A stretch of DNA of 64,000 nt from Sciscionella marina DSM 45152 (GTDB lineage Bacteria > Actinomycetota > Actinomycetes > Mycobacteriales > Pseudonocardiaceae): NCBI RefSeq assembly GCF_000379465.1, contig NZ_KB905396.1:1-64000 (forward strand). The letters are read 5' to 3'. Below, piece after piece: positions 16,149 to 55,965 of this stretch. The position numbers and the translations under genes were made by a program. Every line of letters starts with the position of its first letter. Within the stretch, counting starts at the first letter, position 1. The notes under the pieces were generated by a model that worked only from the letters and a program-made list of their open reading frames with translations, was not told the DNA's origin and made no database searches.

Positions 16149-19100
16149 TCACTCTGGCGGGATCCACGAGATCTGCATCAGCTGCTTGCCCGCCTTGCGG
16201 GTGATGAGCGTGCCCCTGCCGGGCGGCATCTGGGACGGGCGCACCCCGCCCCACAGGTCACCCTCATCGCGGGAACCCGAACCGACGAACCCTGGCGCGG
16301 AGATCTCCTTGAGCTTGCCGACCACCGGGTCGAAGCTGGTCCGCGAGGCACCACCGCTGCGCCGGGTCACGATCATGTGCAGCCCGACGTCCTTGGCCTG
16401 TGGAAGGAACTCACCGAGCGGCTGCAGCGGGTTCCCGCTCTGCGTCGCGACCAGGTCGTAGTCGTCCACGATCACGAACAGCTCGGGACCCTTCCACCAG
16501 GAGCGGTTCTTCAACTGGTCCTGGGTGACATCCGGTCCGGGGATCCTACCCTGCATCGAGCCCTTGATGTCCCCGACGAACTCGTTGAGCTGGGCCGCCG
16601 AGACCGCGTACCCGAGCAGGTGATCGGACTCGATGAATCCGAGCATCGTGCGCCGGTAGTCGACGAGCACGATGACCGCTTCCTTGGACGTGTACTTCTC
16701 GGTGATCCCGCGGCAGATGGTGCGCAGCAGGTTCGTCTTGCCCGCCTCGCCGTCGGTGAACGCCACCAGGTGCGAGTCCGCGTCGAAGTCCAGGCAGACC
16801 GGGGCGAGCGCGTCCTCGTCCACCCCGATCGGGATGAGCCTGCGCCCTCCGGTGTCCTCCGGGAGGAGCCGGGCGACCTCGTCGTACCCGATCATCTCGG
16901 GCAGCAGCCGGACCGGCGGCGCATTGCGTCCGGTCCAGGCATCGGAGATCTTGCGCGCGGCGTCCTGCACCCCGTCGGCAACGGTCTCGTCGTCCGGAGA
17001 GGCGTCGATGCGCGGCAGGCCGACGAGGAAGTGCAGTTTGTCCCTGGAGAGACCGCGACCGGGCCTGCCCTCGGGCACGTTCTGCGCGAGCTTGCGGTCG
17101 GTCTCCGATTCGGAGGGGTCACCGAGGCGCAGCTCGAACCGGGTCCCGATGAGGTCCTTGACCGCGGGCCGCATCTCCGCCCAGCGGTTCGCGGTGATCA
17201 CCACGTGCACACCGTAGGAAAGCCCCTGGGCGATGACCCGCTGTGCGGAGTCCTCCAGCGACTCGAATTCGTTGCGGAAATTCGCCCAGCCGTCGATGAA
17301 CAGGAACACGTCGCCGAACGGGTCCTCCTTGAGTTCCCCGCGGCGGCGCCGGTTGCGGAAATCGGTCATCGAGTCCACGCCGAGCTCGCGGAACCGGCGC
17401 TCCCGGTCCGCGATCAGCTGCACCATCTCGGCGATCATCCGGCGCGCCAGATCGGGATCGAGCCTGCTGGCCACGCCACCGGTGTGCGGCAGCGACTGCA
17501 GACCGCCGAGCGTTCCACCACCGAGATCGAGCGCGTAGAACTGCACTTCCTCCGGGGTGTGGGTGAGCGCGAGCGAGACCATCATCGTGCGCAGCAGCAT
17601 CGACTTACCGGACTGCGGCCCGCCGACGACCAGCCCGTGCCCCGCGGCACCGGAGAAATCCGCCCACAACAGGTCGCGGCGCTGTTCATAGGGCTTGTCC
17701 ACCAGCCCGAACGGCACCTGGAGCCGGCCATTGCCGTAGAAACCCGCCGGGGTGAGCCCGCGGTCCTCGGACGGACCGATCGGCGGGAGCAACTGGTCCA
17801 GCGAGGGCGGCTCGTCCAGCGGCGGCAGCCACACCTCGTGCGCGGGCGGGCCCTGGCCGATGAGCCTGCCGATGATCAGGTCCAGCTGAGTCGGCTCGTT
17901 CGACTCGTCTTCCTTCTTCTCCGGCTCCTCGACGGCCTGCGGCTGCTCCGGTTCGGGCGGTTTCTCGATGAAGTCCGGGACGAACATCTGCGGTTTGCGG
18001 CTCAGCGAGACCGGGGAACTGCGCACCACCGGCTGCATCCCCGAAGGGCGCCACGGACCGGAGACGTAGGCCGCCTTGAACCGCACCATCGGCTCACCCT
18101 GGATGGCCAGGTACCCGGAACCCGGGATGGGCGGGAGCTCGTACGCGTCCGGGACCCCGATCGCGGACCGGGATTCCGCCGCGGAGAACGTCTTGAGACC
18201 GATGCGGTAGGACAGGTAGGTGTCCAGGCCGCGCAGCTTGCCCTCCTCGAGGCGCTGCGAGGCGAGCAGCATGTGCATCTGCAGTGAACGGCCGACCCGG
18301 CCGATCTGCAGGAACAGGTCGATGAAGTCCGGCTTCGCGGTCAGCATCTCGGAGAACTCGTCGATCACGATGAACAGCGCGGGAAGCGGATCGAGATCGG
18401 CGCCGTTCTCGCGCATCTTCTCGTAGTCCCACACGTTCTTCGCGTTCGCCTTGGCCAGCTGCTCCTGGCGGCGGGCGCACTCACCGGCGATCGCGTCCCG
18501 CATACGGTCCACCAGGGTCAGGTCGCCCTCGAGGTTCGTGATGGTCGCCGCGACATGCGGGGCCTCGTCGAACCCGTTGAAGGTCGCACCACCCTTGAAG
18601 TCGACCAGGATCATGTTCAGCGCCGTGGATGAGTGCGTGGCCAGCATGCCGAGCACCAGGGTGCGCAGGAACTCCGACTTACCGGAACCGGTGGCGCCGA
18701 CACAGAGCCCGTGCGGGCCCATGCCTTCCTCGGCGGCCTCCTTGATGTCCAGTTCGACCGGCTGACCGCTTTCCCCGACCCCGAAGGTGACCCGGTAGCG
18801 GTCCCGTTTCGGCCGCGGCCGCCAGGCCTGCTGCACGTCGAAGGTCATCGGGTCGCCGGGGATGCCGAGCAGTTCGAGCATGCCCGGATTGGACAGCAGC
18901 GGCTCCTCGTCACCGGGGCCCTCGGCGGCCACCCCGACCCGGTACGGAGCGAGCTTGCGGGCCAGCGCCTCGGCCTCGACCACGGAGAGCTGGTCGGGAG
19001 TGCCGAACCATTCCACGCCGCCCGCGTTGCGCGCGCCGAGCTGATCCCCCTCGACCACGAGCCGCAGCCCGCGCCGCGCGGTGAGCGAGCCGAGCGAGTT

Positions 19101-20138
19101 GCTCAGGTCGATCATGGTGACCCCGACGAGGCCCTCTTCGAGGATCAGCTGTTCCTCACCGTGGATCTCGCCGTCGTCGATGACGATGATGACCTGCGCC
19201 TGATCGTTGGCGGGCGGGGTGTTGCGGGTGAACCGCTGACGGTCCCCGATCACCTCGTGCAGCATCTGCTCGATCCCGCCGAGCGAGGGGGCGATCATCC
19301 GCACCGGCCCGATGCCGTCGGTCTCGGTGGGGTGCTGGGTGTGCGGCAGCCACTTGGCCCATTCCCACTCGGCCTTGGTGCGGCCCGCGGAGACCACCGC
19401 GATCATCACGTCCTCGGGCGTGTGGAAGGTGGCCAGCTGTCCGAGCAGGGCCCTGGTGAACGCCCGTGCCTTGGCGCGTTCCCCGCCGATACCGATGGCC
19501 GCGAACCCGCGCACGCTCGAGGCGATGGGCAGGTCGGTGACGATCGAGTGCGCGCGCACGAACCGGCGCAGCGCGAGCGTGGAGATCGGCTCGAGTTCGT
19601 CGACCGGACCGGTCTGCGGCGGGACGAGCCTGCTCGCCAGCCGCTGCGAGCCACGGCCGACGCGCACGTGGCAGAAGTCGGAGTCCGAGGGGCGCCGCTC
19701 CCACATCCTGCGGGTCGAGACCAGCGACCACAGCGTCGCCGGATCGGGCAGGTTCCAGTCCCGCTCGCGGCGCTGCTCCTCGGTCGCCTCGCGGGCGCGC
19801 TCCCGCATCTGGCCGAGGTACCGCAGGTAGTCCTTGCGGTCCTCGTTCATCTCGGCTTTCTTGTTGCCGCCCTGACCGCCCCGGCCGGCCATCATCCCGA
19901 TGGTCGAGATCATGAACATGCCACCGAACAGCAGCGAAGTGGGGTTCCCCTTCGAGCTGGTGAACATGAAGGCCATCATCCCGACCGAGGCCACGATCAT
20001 GACCGCGGGAAGCAGCTTCATGACGATGTTGCCCGGGATGACCCGCGGCACCTCGGGCGGCGGCTCGAGGTGCACCTCGCCACCAGGCGGTTTGGGTGCC
20101 GCCAACCGAGCGGAGCGCCTGAACTGCACCGTGCTCAC
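16149..20138 (-). CDS. eccC: Type VII secretion ATPase EccC
   Basis: The motor of the ESX translocon: 1329 residues with two N-terminal TM helices (~41-58, ~67-84) and three FtsK/SpoIIIE ATPase domains in one chain. Domain 1 has Walker A GATGSGKS (481-488) and Walker B VIDEF (~591-595). Domain 2 has GGPQSGKS (839-846) but FLFIDGW in place of a Walker B glutamate. Domain 3 has DGEAGKT (1129-1135), missing the first Walker A glycine. An active first domain with regulatory later domains is usual for EccC. The GTG start at 20138 overlaps a 26-codon mini-ORF by GTGA. Confidence 0.96.
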   Translation of the reverse strand: MSTVQFRRSARLAAPKPPGGEVHLEPPPEVPRVIPGNIVMKLLPAVMIVASVGMMAFMFTSSKGNPTSLLFGGMFMISTIGMMAGRGGQGGNKKAEMNEDRKDYLRYLGQMRERAREATEEQRRERDWNLPDPATLWSLVSTRRMWERRPSDSDFCHVRVGRGSQRLASRLVPPQTGPVDELEPISTLALRRFVRAHSIVTDLPIASSVRGFAAIGIGGERAKARAFTRALLGQLATFHTPEDVMIAVVSAGRTKAEWEWAKWLPHTQHPTETDGIGPVRMIAPSLGGIEQMLHEVIGDRQRFTRNTPPANDQAQVIIVIDDGEIHGEEQLILEEGLVGVTMIDLSNSLGSLTARRGLRLVVEGDQLGARNAGGVEWFGTPDQLSVVEAEALARKLAPYRVGVAAEGPGDEEPLLSNPGMLELLGIPGDPMTFDVQQAWRPRPKRDRYRVTFGVGESGQPVELDIKEAAEEGMGPHGLCVGATGSGKSEFLRTLVLGMLATHSSTALNMILVDFKGGATFNGFDEAPHVAATITNLEGDLTLVDRMRDAIAGECARRQEQLAKANAKNVWDYEKMRENGADLDPLPALFIVIDEFSEMLTAKPDFIDLFLQIGRVGRSLQMHMLLASQRLEEGKLRGLDTYLSYRIGLKTFSAAESRSAIGVPDAYELPPIPGSGYLAIQGEPMVRFKAAYVSGPWRPSGMQPVVRSSPVSLSRKPQMFVPDFIEKPPEPEQPQAVEEPEKKEDESNEPTQLDLIIGRLIGQGPPAHEVWLPPLDEPPSLDQLLPPIGPSEDRGLTPAGFYGNGRLQVPFGLVDKPYEQRRDLLWADFSGAAGHGLVVGGPQSGKSMLLRTMMVSLALTHTPEEVQFYALDLGGGTLGGLQSLPHTGGVASRLDPDLARRMIAEMVQLIADRERRFRELGVDSMTDFRNRRRRGELKEDPFGDVFLFIDGWANFRNEFESLEDSAQRVIAQGLSYGVHVVITANRWAEMRPAVKDLIGTRFELRLGDPSESETDRKLAQNVPEGRPGRGLSRDKLHFLVGLPRIDASPDDETVADGVQDAARKISDAWTGRNAPPVRLLPEMIGYDEVARLLPEDTGGRRLIPIGVDEDALAPVCLDFDADSHLVAFTDGEAGKTNLLRTICRGITEKYTSKEAVIVLVDYRRTMLGFIESDHLLGYAVSAAQLNEFVGDIKGSMQGRIPGPDVTQDQLKNRSWWKGPELFVIVDDYDLVATQSGNPLQPLGEFLPQAKDVGLHMIVTRRSGGASRTSFDPVVGKLKEISAPGFVGSGSRDEGDLWGGVRPSQMPPGRGTLITRKAGKQLMQISWIPPE

Positions 20139-20215
20139 GATTGCTCCTCGCTAACGCTCGTCACCATCGCTCGCGAGGCTGCTGTGTCCTCTGGTTCGCT
20201 CGCAAGCTCACTCAC
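20135..20215 (-). CDS. Mini-ORF 2 of tandem start-stop cassette, coupled to eccC
   Basis: A 26-codon reading frame starting GTG AGT GAG CTT (VSELASEPED...) and ending SEEQS-TGA. Its TGA overlaps the eccC GTG in a GTGA, and its last codons carry the eccC ribosome site GAGGAG. Its own start overlaps the stop of the preceding identical-type mini-ORF. Whether the peptide matters, or only the act of translation, is unknown. Confidence 0.5.
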   Translation of the reverse strand: MSELASEPEDTAASRAMVTSVSEEQS

Positions 20216-20289
20216 GATTGCTCCTCGCTAACGCTCGTCACCATCGCTCGCGAGGCTGCTGTGTCCCCTGGTTCGCTCGCAAGCTCACT
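20136..20289. repeat. Two tandem 77-bp repeats upstream of eccC
   Basis: Units 20136-20212 and 20213-20289 are almost identical; one visible difference is TCCTCTGG versus TCCCCTGG. A partial third unit begins at 20290. Each unit carries a start codon, a 26-codon frame and a ribosome-binding site in register with the next start. A related single unit lies at 24895-24972. Confidence 0.92.
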
Positions 20290-20292
20290 CAC
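20212..20292 (-). CDS. Mini-ORF 1 of tandem start-stop cassette
   Basis: First 26-codon mini-ORF (VSELASEPGDT...), preceded by GAGGAG with 5-nt spacing. It overlaps mini-ORF 2 by the same GTGA junction. The chain mini-ORF 1, mini-ORF 2, eccC would allow ribosomes to terminate and reinitiate twice before reaching eccC. Confidence 0.5.
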   Translation of the reverse strand: MSELASEPGDTAASRAMVTSVSEEQS

Positions 20293-20537
20293 GATTTCTC
20301 CTCGAGCGTCTGGTCCCCGACTTTTCCCTGCTTTCCCTACCAGATCGCCCCTACGGATGGGAAAGATCTGGCAAAGTCACCGATGTTCGCCCGCGCCCCG
20401 GGCACTCGGACGGATGACGGTCGACCGGCTACCCGTCCGCACACCGGCGTGCACATACTAGGGTGCCTGCCAGAGTATCGGGCGGACGCAGTAGAACCAT
20501 TCGGACATCGCAGCAGAGGCGAAGTAGGGGGCCAGAG

Positions 20538-21935
20538 GTGGCAACCAGCACGACCGTGTTTTCCCGGGTGACCGTTGTCGCCCCGAGTACGCGTATCGAT
20601 GTCGCACTACCCGCGGACGTCTCGATCGCGGATCTGATGCCGATGATCCTGGACATGGCCAGAGAGAACAGCCCCGACGGCGGTGCCCGGCACGGTGGCT
20701 GGGCCCTGGCCAAACTGGGCGGCGAACAGCTCGATCCCGGGCACACCCTGGCCTCGCTCGGCATCGTCGACGGCGACCTGCTGCAGCTGCGCAAGCGCTC
20801 GGACAATCCGCCGCCGCCGCTCTACGACGACGTGGTGGACGCGATCGCCGCGGCCACTCCGGGCAGCTTCCGCCCGTGGACCAAGACCACCGCGCGGCGG
20901 ATCGCGCACATCGGAGCGGGTGCCGCACTGGTCGCCGCCGCGCTCGCGCTGTTCTACGCCGGCCCCTTCGGCGGTGGCCCCAGCATCGGACCGGCTGTCG
21001 CCGGCGGGGTCGCGGCACTCGTGCTCATCGGCATCGCCGGTTCGCTGGCCAGGGTGTACGACGCGCCGGGGACCGCGGTGCTCATCTCCGCGGCCGGGGC
21101 GATCCCGATGGCCTTCATCGCCGGGCTCTACGCGGTGCCCGAGGGACCGAAGGCACCGAACCTGCTGCTCGGCTCGGTGCTCATCGTGGTGTTCGCGGCG
21201 GCCTCGATCTGGCTGATCGGCCGCGGGGTCACGGTGTTCATCGCGTTCGGCGCGGCCGGGGTACTCGGCTTCGTCGCGTTCCTGATCGGCACCTTCGTGG
21301 ACGCCACCCCGGCGGCCATCGCCTCCGGTGCGGCCGCGGTCGCGCTCGTGGGCATCTCGCTGCTGCCGAGGGTGACCATCCAGCTGGCCCGGCTGCCGCT
21401 GCCGAACGTCCCGACCAATGCCGAGGACCTCAAGGAAACCGGCCCGTTCCCGGATTTCGCGCAGATCGAGAAGCGCTCCGGGATGGCGCACGAGTACCTG
21501 ACCGGCCTGATCGTCGGCTGCGGGGCGGTCGCGGCCGTCTCCGCGATCGTCACCGCGGGCCATGGCACGATCTGGGGTTTCCTACTGGCGATCGTGATCT
21601 CTTTGGTGCTCATGCTGCGCGGCCGCAGCTACGCGAACGGCGCGCAGGCGATCGCCCTGCTCGCGACCGGGATGGTCGCCGCGGCCGGGGTGGCCATCGG
21701 CTGGCTCACCGAGTCCTCCCCGCTGACCAGGATCCTCTACATCTTCGGGGTGCTCGTCATCGTGGCGGCCGCCTCGCTGGTGATCGGCGTGATCTTCCCC
21801 GAGCAGAAGTTCTCCCCGGTCATGCGCCGCACCGTGGACATCATCGAGGGCGTGCTCATCGCGGCGGTGCTGCCGCTCGCGCTCGCCGTCATGGAGCTCT
21901 ACGACACGGTGCGTCACCTCCGTATCGGTGGCTGA
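20538..21935 (+). CDS. eccD: Type VII secretion integral membrane protein EccD
   Basis: The central membrane channel component of the ESX complex; 465 residues. An N-terminal ubiquitin-like YukD domain (residues ~5-85, VFSRVTVVAPSTRIDVALP ... LASLGIVDGDLLQLRK) is followed by about eleven TM helices. The GTG at 20538 was chosen, with AGGGGG upstream; the 25 extra residues of the longer frame are Arg/Ser-rich and unlike the family. It is divergent from eccC, with the mini-ORF cassettes between, and is followed 31 nt later by the mycosin gene. Confidence 0.94.
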   Translation: MATSTTVFSRVTVVAPSTRIDVALPADVSIADLMPMILDMARENSPDGGARHGGWALAKLGGEQLDPGHTLASLGIVDGDLLQLRKRSDNPPPPLYDDVVDAIAAATPGSFRPWTKTTARRIAHIGAGAALVAAALALFYAGPFGGGPSIGPAVAGGVAALVLIGIAGSLARVYDAPGTAVLISAAGAIPMAFIAGLYAVPEGPKAPNLLLGSVLIVVFAAASIWLIGRGVTVFIAFGAAGVLGFVAFLIGTFVDATPAAIASGAAAVALVGISLLPRVTIQLARLPLPNVPTNAEDLKETGPFPDFAQIEKRSGMAHEYLTGLIVGCGAVAAVSAIVTAGHGTIWGFLLAIVISLVLMLRGRSYANGAQAIALLATGMVAAAGVAIGWLTESSPLTRILYIFGVLVIVAAASLVIGVIFPEQKFSPVMRRTVDIIEGVLIAAVLPLALAVMELYDTVRHLRIGG

Positions 21936-23773: not shown

Positions 23774-24898
23774 CTACTCTGATCGGGGCGGTGGATCGTA
23801 CTCCGCGCCGATCACCGGGGGTGCGGTCGCTTCCGGGTTACCGAAGAGGTCCGCGGCATCCGAGGTGAGCCCGCGCTTGCGCTGATACTCCTGATCACCA
23901 CCGGCGCCACCGCCCATGCCGCCACCCATCATCGGCATGCCGCCGAAGCCGCCCTGGCCGCCCGCGCTCGCCGCCGGTGCGGGCGCGCCGCCGCGTTCCG
24001 GGTGCGGGCCGGGTTCCTGCGCCGCCGCGCTCATCGGTCCCTGGCCGGGCTGACCGTCGCCGTGGCCCTCGCCGATCGGGAGAGTGCCGGAAACCGGCGC
24101 GAGGCCTCGGTTCGGATCGTTCGACGCGGCCGGACCGTCCGCGGCCGCGGGGGCGGTCGTAGCCGAGTCACCCGCCGCCGGTCCGGATTCCGTGCCGGAA
24201 ACCGGATTCGGCGCCACGGCGGCGAGTTCCCGGTGCTGCTCCGCTGCTCCGTGGTCCTGCGAGCCGGGCGATGGCGTGGCTTCTCCGGGGAAGGCGAACC
24301 GCCCCGGCATGGTGTGCCTCAGCTTTTCCCCGTCCCCGCCCGCGCCGTCCAGCTGCTCGCACATCCGCACGAAGGCGCGCAGTGCCTGGCGGATCGACTC
24401 GAACAGTTCCGCGCACGGCCGGTCGATCTCCTCGAGATGCTCGCACGCCTGCTGTTTGGCGGGCACCGGCATGGACAAGGCCTTGGACACGTCCTCCGCG
24501 CAGGCCGTGAGCACCTCCGCGAGCTTGTCCACCATGGAGCGCACCCCATCGGCGAGCTTGTCCAGGGCCTCGGCCATTGCGCTCATCGCGTCCGCGACAT
24601 CCACCCCGGCCGCGCCGACCGTGCCCATATAGGTCATGAACGCCTCGGCATCACGGCCCTGCCAGGTGGCGTCCAGGGTGCCGAGCGGCTTCTTCACCTC
24701 ATCGGTGACCGCGCTCGCCTGCTTCGCCGCGGTGCGCCAGCGATCGGCCTCCTCGTGCATGGCGCTCCACCGGCCGAGTACCGGCGTGAAGTACCGCTCC
24801 ACCGGGTCCTGGACGCCGAGTTTCGCGCAGGCATGGGAAAGATAGTCGAGCCGGTCCGCGGACCGCTGCTGGATCTCGTGCCCGTCCAGGCCGGTCAC
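23774..24898 (-). CDS. WXG-domain putative type VII substrate with Pro/Ala-rich tail
   Basis: A 374-residue protein. Residues ~1-190 are helical with a WXG turn WQG (79-81, DATWQGRDAEAF) and several Cys. Residues 200-330 are disordered Pro/Ala/Gly-rich. The C-terminus GGMPMMGGGMGGGAGGDQEYQRKR plus LFGNPE parallels the tail of the PPE-like protein at 7380-9971 (positions given here so both tails can be compared). The GTG start overlaps a mini-ORF stop (GTGA). Context and the shared tail suggest secretion by this ESX system; inferred. Confidence 0.75.
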   Translation of the reverse strand: MTGLDGHEIQQRSADRLDYLSHACAKLGVQDPVERYFTPVLGRWSAMHEEADRWRTAAKQASAVTDEVKKPLGTLDATWQGRDAEAFMTYMGTVGAAGVDVADAMSAMAEALDKLADGVRSMVDKLAEVLTACAEDVSKALSMPVPAKQQACEHLEEIDRPCAELFESIRQALRAFVRMCEQLDGAGGDGEKLRHTMPGRFAFPGEATPSPGSQDHGAAEQHRELAAVAPNPVSGTESGPAAGDSATTAPAAADGPAASNDPNRGLAPVSGTLPIGEGHGDGQPGQGPMSAAAQEPGPHPERGGAPAPAASAGGQGGFGGMPMMGGGMGGGAGGDQEYQRKRGLTSDAADLFGNPEATAPPVIGAEYDPPPRSE

Positions 24899-24972
24899 CG
24901 CCTTCGCTCCCTACGGGAGCTCGGCGCTTCCCGCCGGTGCTGTGTCTTTGATTCGCTCGCAAGCTCGCTCAT
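24895..24972 (-). CDS. Mini-ORF 3, single start-stop cassette bridging two ESX genes
   Basis: A 25-codon frame beginning MSELASESK and ending in Arg-rich codons. Its ATG overlaps the stop of the upstream gene in ATGA, and its TGA overlaps the next gene's GTG in GTGA. It therefore fills the whole gap with continuous coupling. The first nine codons match the cassettes before eccC. Confidence 0.5.
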   Translation of the reverse strand: MSELASESKTQHRREAPSSRRERRR

Positions 24973-55103: not shown

Positions 55104-55965
55104 CCTCGTTCCCGGGTTCACTCTCGGATTCGGATTCGGATTCGGATTCGGATTCGGATTCGGATTCGGGTTCGGGTTCCGGGCGCTTGCGCAGCTGCGC
55201 GATGAGGAACCACACCAACCCGGCGAGCGCGAGGGCCGCGGCCACGAAGAAGTTCAGCCGTAGGCCGAGGAAGTACTGCGAATAGTCCACCCGCAGGGAT
55301 TCCTCGAAGATCCGGAACCCGGAGTAGCCGAACACGTAGAGCGCGAACAACCCCGGCGCGCGCACCTTGCCGGTCCGCCCGAGCAGGATCAGCACGACGG
55401 CGAGCAGCACGTCGAAGACCATCTCGTAGAGGAAGGTCGGGTGGAACGTGGTGAACTGTTCGAAACCCGGCGGCCGGAACTCGGGATCCACGTGCACCGC
55501 CCAGGGCAGCGAGCTCGGCCCGCCGAACAGTTCCTGGTTGAAGTAATTGCCGATCCGCCCGATGGCCTGCGCGACGAGCAGTCCCGGCGCCACCGCGTCC
55601 ATGAAAGCGGACACCGACTTGCCGCGACGGCGGATCCGCCAGGCACCGACCACCGCGGCGAGCGCGATCCCGCCCCAGATACCGAGCCCGCCGTCCCACA
55701 CCGCGAACGGACCCCACCAGTGCGGCGGCATCTGTGAGGGCGTGGTGATGTCGAAATAGATGCGGCCACCGATGATCCCGGCGGGTACCCCCCAGATCGC
55801 GATCTCCTCGACCAGTTCCGGGTCACCGCCCTTGGCGCGCCAGCGGCGCCGGGTGAGCCAGATCGCGAGGGCGATCCCGACCACGTACATCAGCCCGTAG
55901 AACCGGATGTTCAGCGGGCCCAGATCGAAGCCGTTGATCGGTGGACTGGGAATGGCGGTAAGCAC
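55072..55965 (-). CDS. lgt: Prolipoprotein diacylglyceryl transferase
   Basis: Transfers diacylglycerol to the lipobox Cys of prolipoproteins; 297 residues, seven TM helices. The signature RIGNYFNQELFGGPS and the early NIRFYGLMYVVG are present. After the last TM the tail contains an acidic SE dipeptide run encoded by a hexanucleotide repeat. It is convergent with gntP and overlaps it by 32 nt. Confidence 0.95.
   Translation of the reverse strand: MLTAIPSPPINGFDLGPLNIRFYGLMYVVGIALAIWLTRRRWRAKGGDPELVEEIAIWGVPAGIIGGRIYFDITTPSQMPPHWWGPFAVWDGGLGIWGGIALAAVVGAWRIRRRGKSVSAFMDAVAPGLLVAQAIGRIGNYFNQELFGGPSSLPWAVHVDPEFRPPGFEQFTTFHPTFLYEMVFDVLLAVVLILLGRTGKVRAPGLFALYVFGYSGFRIFEESLRVDYSQYFLGLRLNFFVAAALALAGLVWFLIAQLRKRPEPEPESESESESESESESESEPGNEVKEEAHRAEE
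55124..55168. repeat. Hexanucleotide microsatellite in the lgt tail
   Basis: About 7.5 perfect copies of TCGGAT, then degenerate TCGGGT units. It encodes alternating Ser-Glu in the cytoplasmic tail of Lgt. The unit length keeps the frame, so slippage would only vary tail length. Confidence 0.9.

Follow-up and report, generated by a model that had tools for sequence, protein, structure and literature searches.

Putative MIRU-like element in two tandem copies at the eccC start of Sciscionella marina, with ends that appear to pair with gene start codons

MIRU-type repeats (mycobacterial interspersed repetitive units, MIRUs) serve to type tuberculosis strains. As described in the available passages of PMC12548453, which cites Supply 1997, MIRUs appear to be mobile, insert at start codons with an internal open reading frame (ORF) coupled at -4 nt, and have minimal impact. 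PMC4213456 places 77-bp units at senX3-regX3 of M. tuberculosis H37Rv and gives lengths of 77 and 53 bp for the MIRUs at senX3-regX3, and PMC2734929 terms the function of MIRU-type repeats not well understood. According to passages of PMC5934647 and PMC6006769, IS608 inserts 3' of TTAC, its cleavage sites being read by 4-nt guide pairing, and the REP set used in PMC6006769 is marked by GTAG or GTGG tags, its stems being paired throughout. No guide or hairpin account of MIRU-type repeats, nor a mechanism of start-codon choice, was found in the literature searched (few subscription papers, hence not proof of absence). Here we analysed a stretch of 64,000 nucleotides from Sciscionella marina DSM 45152 (contig NZ_KB905396.1, positions 1 to 64,000; hereafter the window), in which two tandem 77-bp units lead directly into the start codon of eccC. 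We favour, with a probability of roughly 0.7, the reading that these units are copies of a short, non-autonomous, MIRU-like element that inserts at start codons.

Tandem Repeats Finder (TRF), run on the window, reported a period of 77 with 2.2 copies and 97% matches at 20134-20304, together with a 26-bp sub-period. The two units lie on the minus strand between 20292 and the eccC GTG at 20138 and are 76/77 identical. Read along that strand, with slashes at the unit boundaries, the layout is ctcGAGGAGaaatc / GTGA...GCGAGGAGcaatc / GTGA...GCGAGGAGcaatc / GTGAGCACGGTG. GTG codons stand at 20292, 20215 and 20138; the TGA of each mini-ORF (translations VSELASEPGDTAASRAMVTSVSEEQS and VSELASEPEDTAASRAMVTSVSEEQS) overlaps the next GTG, and the GAGGAG of each unit lies 5 nt upstream of the following start. 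The features are:

20135..20292, minus strand: array of two 77-bp units with three GTGA bounds, the last GTGA being the eccC start (cmsearch 90.0 and 67.5 bits)
20212..20292, minus strand: unit 1 with mini-ORF 1, from GTG 20292 over 26 codons to the TGA at 20214-20212, which overlaps GTG 20215
20135..20215, minus strand: unit 2 with mini-ORF 2, from GTG 20215 over 26 codons to the TGA at 20137-20135, which overlaps the eccC GTG at 20138
20271..20292, minus strand: putative left-end hairpin of unit 1, with left guide GAAC (20274-20271) opposite GTGA (20292-20289), from family covariation
20212..20249, minus strand: putative right-end hairpin of unit 1, with right guide (20249-20246) opposite GTGA (20215-20212), from family covariation
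20194..20215, minus strand: putative left-end hairpin of unit 2, from family covariation
20135..20172, minus strand: putative right-end hairpin of unit 2, from family covariation; its base contains the eccC start codon
20298..20303, minus strand: GAGGAG now upstream of mini-ORF 1, which stands before eccC in the empty site (identical before GTGAGCACGGTG in the related record L009)
20221..20226, minus strand: GAGGAG of unit 1
20144..20149, minus strand: GAGGAG of unit 2, now ahead of eccC
16149..20138, minus strand: eccC, an FtsK/SpoIIIE ATPase of 1329 aa in a type VII secretion locus

The initial annotation had described two 77-bp repeats with GTG starts, 26 codons, a ribosome site and TGA/GTG overlaps, chained up to the eccC start, and all of these are present; the mobility, hairpins and start-codon targeting proposed below were not part of it. 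This geometry is to be completed in three respects: the whole array is on the minus strand, the ribosome site before the first copy belongs to the empty site, and the mini-ORF chain has no upstream cistron, since eccD, the 5' neighbour of the array, is divergently oriented. The GTG at 20138 opens the 1329-aa protein with FtsK/SpoIIIE domains, and the locus also encodes EccB, EccD, EccE and a subtilase, with a weak WXG100 match slightly below cut-off; from its domains and locus partners, the name eccC is sound.

Among named records sharing this eccC, the nearest, from Sciscionella sediminilitoris SE31 (L009, 98% protein identity), has the flanks joined at GTGA (...ctcgaggagaaatc / GTGAGCACGGTG...), is 154 bp shorter, and is identical over 90 nt across the junction. 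We collected 80 eccC loci, one of which (L070) was without the start and 78 others of which had it present. A model search of the 80 loci at E<=0.01 revealed one related copy, in Actinophytocola gossypii (L031:2903-2982), ending 18 nt before the eccC start. Because a related copy occurs at just 1 of the 78 other eccC loci, we infer that presence of the repeat at eccC is the derived state, reached by insertion rather than by loss.

Empty counterparts of other arrays were sought in the same-genus genome G001, using 27 joined flank pairs from the S. marina genome (8.54 Mb), with eccC handled apart. Contiguous empty sites were recovered for 16/27: nine differed in length by 77 bp, four by 74, two by 154 and one by 78. 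The weakest alignment was L154; the apparent empty site of L148 was an array contraction, not an empty site, and the remaining ten pairs gave split matches. The G001 junction was DTGA (D = A, G or T) in 15/16, with TTGA at L117 and L154 read across a gap, and was GTGC at L106. At the sequence level, what separates relatives is exactly one or two units, placed at a DTGA that serves as a gene's start codon. Empty sites match the flanks up to the DTGA; with equal ends, a 4-bp duplication is indistinguishable from none.

Copy number also differs at matching sites of two species (one at L096 versus two at L159; two at L091 versus one at L137). Together with the two start-stop overlaps in series at eccC, this variation would suit a model in which repeat number tunes EccC output through serial termination-reinitiation. 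We consider that model quite improbable: the same elements stand at unrelated genes, every unit has its own ribosome site, and the array is absent at eccC in L009, the copy in L031 being the sole relative that the model search (E<=0.01) found among the other eccC loci and falling short of the start. The eccC-specific role put forward in the initial annotation was not borne out, because the element is a member of a dispersed family and is missing from the L009 eccC. Nor is the suggested dependence of eccC translation on two rounds of reinitiation supported, every unit having a separate GAGGAG 5 nt ahead of the start. The element is best read as an insertion rather than as a regulator of eccC.

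The repeat is not a product of chance. With one unit as a probe, the 8.5-Mb genome yielded 43 matches at E<=1, of which 27 remained at E<=0.01. The left-end motif occurred at 69 sites with at most one mismatch (47 exact), compared with 3 for the reversed pattern at the same tolerance. Matches at E<=0.01 were present in 12/41 genomes, comprising the window's own genome (G000) and 40 relatives: 32 in G010, 27 in G000, 20 in G020, 18 in G001, 6 in G007 and 1-3 in the rest. Our catalogue comprised 98 loci from five genomes, 97 of them with a profile hit; four loci repeating the same array were dropped, leaving 94 arrays with 123 units. Twenty of these units were partial or of another subfamily and 19 were full-length without a left or right DTGA, so that 84 were kept. 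Arrays are single or tandem, and unit spacing ranges over 72-83, mostly 77, with an additional 65-bp form. L114 (G000:C24:62982-63054) and L152 are related hairpin elements in which no right DTGA was found; L114 shows long stems by eye (GTTCGCC..GGCGAAC and CACGCACGAGGGG..CCCCTCGTGCGTG) around the same two loop motifs, and the two are possibly a palindromic cousin with another target.

The position of the family relative to genes is biased. In G000, 33/37 arrays begin at DTGA and 31/37 are followed by DTGA. A genome-wide check of unit/gene-start junctions, set beforehand, found this bias: 28/31 right DTGAs lead into ORFs that reach 80 codons or more, compared with 45% of the 3379 DTGA sites in the five-genome loci (p=1.7e-7). 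An ORF of at least 80 codons ends at the left TGA in 17/33 arrays of G000, against a background of 25%. Pfam recognised 16 of the 20 downstream proteins examined; in several the match began at residue 5-26, and the domains included NUDIX, PfkB, condensation domain, tryptophan synthase alpha and class I tRNA synthetase W/Y; the downstream proteins of L095, L098, L116 and L151 had no Pfam match at E<=1e-6.

By its layout the eccC element would be MIRU-like, a likeness drawn from descriptions of MIRUs, with ends resembling those of IS608. MIRUs are short dispersed direct repeats of roughly 40-100 bp, single or tandem, as is the Sciscionella family. Both have an internal ORF overlapping the gene start by 4 nt (63/84 units here), and both are associated with insertion at start codons, seen here at the 16 G001 empty sites and the L009 eccC if the direction of change is as argued above. 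The present family differs in occurring in Pseudonocardiaceae and other families of the order, and the passages available on MIRUs describe no paired hairpins or guide-to-start-codon pairing. Leader uORFs (upstream ORFs) with termination-reinitiation, as outlined in part of PMC12548453, are likewise short ORFs whose stop overlaps the next start, whereas the present uORFs travel with a dispersed repeat and can be tandem.

The family extends well beyond Sciscionella. Model R1 matched 130/298 genomes of the order at E<=1e-4, in 36/77 genera; at most 15 candidates per genome were scored, making per-genome counts lower bounds, and model E-values are rough. In one genus, g31, R1 matched 61/248 genomes at E<=0.01, and R2, a model built from the 65-bp form, matched 124/396 genomes at E<=0.001. 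PE domains were found in 9/9 g31 genomes tested and also in both g52 genomes, G010, G020 and the E. coli control; our guess is that g31 is Mycobacterium. In another genome of the order, seven head-to-tail units form one array (G276:C51:4873-5415).

The 57/84 units with a spacing of exactly 77 were aligned by sequence alone, giving alignment A1. Five of the nine top mutual-information column pairs in A1 belong to a right stem (50-75, 48-77, 49-76, 47-79 and 52-73), and other high-ranking pairs, such as 29-35, lie outside the proposed structure. This structure consists of a left hairpin (columns 1-10 with 13-22) and a right hairpin (columns 44-60 with 65-82). On A1 it has 118 cells changed on both sides, compared with 39.8 in shuffles (0/500 as high), and a covariation score of 0.244, compared with 0.029-0.069 for slid versions; related sequences can beat shuffles without structure, and the slid control and further sets weigh against that. 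Two further sets, from genomes outside the first model and picked by structure-aware models and hence biased towards the structure, also covary (46 cells vs 16.3, and 39 vs 10.8). The covariation supports two hairpins per unit. In the predicted stems, Watson-Crick pairs alternate with tandem G-A mismatches, and in other subfamilies the outer mismatches become Watson-Crick pairs (GTGACC..GGTCAC, GTGAAC..GTTCAC, GTGATC..GATCAC). The outer edge of each hairpin is a DTGA opposite an internal 4-nt guide (GAAC, GAAT, TCAC and variants).

The first base of the DTGA follows the guide. Among 76 distinct 65-bp-form units of g31, the left base and guide were A-T in 60, G-C in 11, G-T in 2 and A-C in 3; the right base and guide were A-T in 64, G-C in 7 and G-T in 3, two rows being without them. 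Counting G-T, pairing is possible at 73/76 left ends and at 74/74 scorable right ends. Nine g31 units have unequal left and right bases, and both ends pair in all 9, four via one G-T. Since both ends of a unit are mostly alike, the left base in g31 also correlates with the guide of the other end (p=6e-5).

Empty sites allowed the guide to be compared with the base originally present in the host, judged for each insertion from the empty site with the best alignment score. For g31, 23 flank pairs from 40 loci were searched in 8 genomes, and 18/23 gave a junction-spanning alignment. Combined over both sources, T guides corresponded to 15 A and 0 G, and C guides to 3 A and 12 G (p=1e-5). The relation held in Sciscionella alone (T guide, 4 A and 0 G; C guide, 2 A and 9 G; p=0.011) and, with duplicates merged, in g31 alone (T guide, 11 A and 0 G; C guide, 1 A and 3 G; p=0.009). 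L117 (TTGA) and L106 (GTGC) are left out of these counts, and the ATGA of L154 is read across the alignment gap. In g31, T-guide sites were reduced from 13 to 11 by merging L321/L330 and L327/L328 (probably the same gene) and by dropping L337, whose left flank is another unit. For L334, the C-guide exception, a later change of guide is likely because the near-identical L355 in another genome has a T guide. Where the two ends are unequal and an empty site is available, the host base equals the left end in 4/5 (L349, L326, L353 and L116); the element thus seems to come in 3' of the host tetranucleotide and to supply the new start. On this basis, an original GTG start would have given way to ATG at L349. 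In four g31 genomes (L324, L336, L341 and L348) the element occupies what is apparently one and the same gene start, with differing start bases and guides; among these are near-identical copies with different bases at both termini.

The sequence to the left of the insertions bears on a different route of spread, in which similar ribosome-site/start regions would exchange sequence through homologous recombination or gene conversion, with no dedicated enzyme. In L094, L096 and L154 the element tail recurs as the spacer ahead of the left DTGA, and in L094/L225, L099/L220 and L103/L226 the 5-7 nt spacer is far more changed relative to the empty site than the adjoining DNA, as though the insertion had modified it; both observations would suit such exchange. 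At L093, L153 and L156, however, the left spacer is unchanged, and the start base follows the guide; we regard this route as highly improbable. A target-site duplication including the ribosome site, hinted at by L094, L096 and L154, was rejected as a general rule because most tails are unlike the left flank.

For insertion at start codons, the following course can be proposed. The element, probably single-stranded, would enter 3' of a host DTGA that its left guide selects through base pairing. The original start codon of the host gene would remain on the left, where it would open the mini-ORF, and the right DTGA of the element would become the new start of the gene. Ribosomes could then reach eccC either by termination-reinitiation over the 4-nt overlap or by fresh initiation at the GAGGAG of the element, and because either route leads to eccC the insertion would be nearly silent. 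The second copy at eccC would have arisen by tandem duplication, the two copies differing at one base.

The cost of opening the start was computed for 17 filled/empty pairs, L154 giving no score. It was higher when filled in 13/16 pairs (mean 11.5 vs 8.9 kcal/mol, two-sided p=0.02); at the eccC start it was 10.1 filled vs 10.0 kcal/mol empty. These values matter for an explanation at the level of mRNA, in which the right hairpin hides the ribosome site and start, coupling to the mini-ORF is obligatory and the pairing is kept by selection on expression. The start codon does lie within the right stem, the increase in 13/16 pairs would favour coupling, and some sister copies have had their terminal bases and guides altered since insertion. 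Against this explanation, opening energy is practically the same at eccC with and without the array, units carry GAGGAG or GAGGTG ribosome sites, and left hairpins obey the same rule although they would hinder the start of the mini-ORF. Moreover, selection on expression alone does not explain why the start base of the empty site follows the guide. We regard the mRNA explanation as possible, with the odds tilted against it, and continue to prefer a mobile element inserting at start codons.

The start-stop chaining noted at eccC recurs across the family. In units with DTGA at both ends, the ORF reaches the overlapping TGA in 63/84 over the five genomes and in 26/29 in G000. Spacing leaves a remainder of 2 on division by 3 in 68/84 units (28/29 in G000), and GAGGAG or GAGGTG stands directly ahead of the right start. 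The mini-ORF frame is open in 173/181 units; of the two remaining forward frames, one is open in 132 units and one in 144. This count leaves out 4 units of G007 and includes 101 units picked by models. The 65-bp form also leaves a remainder of 2, with the ORF intact in 72/73 model-picked units. In another model-picked set the ORF is intact in 28/28. In L093, L167, L176 and L181 the spacing is a multiple of 3 and the frame reads into the following sequence; the units of L167 and L181 would add an N-terminal extension of 25-26 residues to the gene product.

Several observations weigh against a guide-directed mobile element. More distant empty sites are not all in agreement: for L349 the two nearest have GTGA but four further ones ATGA, and a second empty-site match carries the other base for L324 and L336, as it does for L332, where it has GTGA. 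The host base at L110 is that of the right end. Since the sister units L324 and L341 are unlike at both terminal bases, these bases change after insertion. Folding energies are no better than those of shuffles (mean z -0.10 over 84 units), and no exceptional thermodynamic stability was found; as DNA, both hairpins of the eccC copy likewise fold no better than their shuffles. In contrast to IS608, the left guide is located 3' of its hairpin. As for the mini-ORF, one antisense frame is open in 160/181 units, including 41/41 in Sciscionella, and is as open as the mini-ORF frame in 28 model-picked units too; G010 keeps the ORF in 9/21 units, and outside G010, 7/12 units of other lengths break the frame. 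For these reasons the mini-ORF frame is favoured but not strictly guarded.

The search for a mobilizer adds to these points. No Y1 transposase (PF01797) was detected in the repeat-carrying genomes G000, G001, G007, G010 and G020, a search that a diverged enzyme could escape; in these five genomes a Y1/RAYT transposase is therefore unsupported as the mobilizer. In G000, no left end and right end were found 0.3-3 kb apart around a gene (at most one mismatch, by eye) except for the unit cluster C2:832685-833385, so that no autonomous parent element was seen at that spacing. Neither phage nor plasmid origin is indicated, with no match at E<=0.01 in either collection, and no known RNA family was matched in Rfam up to E=1 in window positions 19500-21000.

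A mechanistic comparison can be made with IS200/IS605 elements such as IS608, and it is conceivable that the family is an IS200/IS605-RAYT-REP member moved by a diverged HUH transposase that PF01797 misses. Two subterminal hairpins, a tetranucleotide at both ends and guide pairing are shared, and insertion 3' of a tetranucleotide would be a further likeness. PF01797 was found in 5/41 genomes searched and in 5/14 control genomes, yet in none of the five carriers; eccC-type units are too short for a transposase gene, the left guide is on the other side of its hairpin, and the target is a start codon. With REP/RAYT systems the family shares short dispersed hairpin elements bearing a tetranucleotide. 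It differs from them in having DTGA tags rather than the REP-type GTAG, G-A mismatches in place of fully paired stems, and start-codon targeting. Judged by the transposase, the family does not belong to IS200/IS605, and we consider a missed HUH enzyme rather unlikely.

Taken more broadly, the data would fit a class of tiny elements, spread over the order, in which a 4-nt guide pairs with the host ATGA or GTGA to select the start codon and a second guide-matched DTGA at the end of the element provides the new start, with MIRUs as one branch and a mobilizer other than a Y1 transposase; this generalisation is tentative, and we place it a little short of even odds. If true, such an element could swap GTG for ATG or the reverse, the gene being kept translatable through the built-in mini-ORF. 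Covariation and empty sites together give a rule by which the guide predicts the start codon entered. If that rule reflects mobility, this would be a natural mobile element that targets gene starts by DNA base pairing and survives through being nearly silent to translation. For annotation, genes carrying the element would have shifted or doubled start sites, and the family offers many natural replicates for studies of termination-reinitiation.

Two other features of the same type VII locus are:

24895..24972, minus strand: second family member in the window, of a 74-bp subfamily, with ATGA left and GTGA right (cmsearch 47.8 bits)
20547..21935, plus strand: eccD, the divergent neighbour, with a putative start position

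The second member lies between an ORF ending at 24969 and an ORF starting at 24898, and its empty counterpart in G001 is an ATGA junction. Among the eccC loci, L085 (titled Rhodococcus rhodnii) and L011 (titled Candidatus Melainabacteria) carry a Pseudonocardiaceae-like eccC, and the 60 nt upstream of eccC in L085 are identical to those of Kibdelosporangium aridum L066, which suggests that the two records are mislabelled or contaminated. Elsewhere in the window, TRF reported the hexamer TCGGAT about 9 times at 55124-55179.

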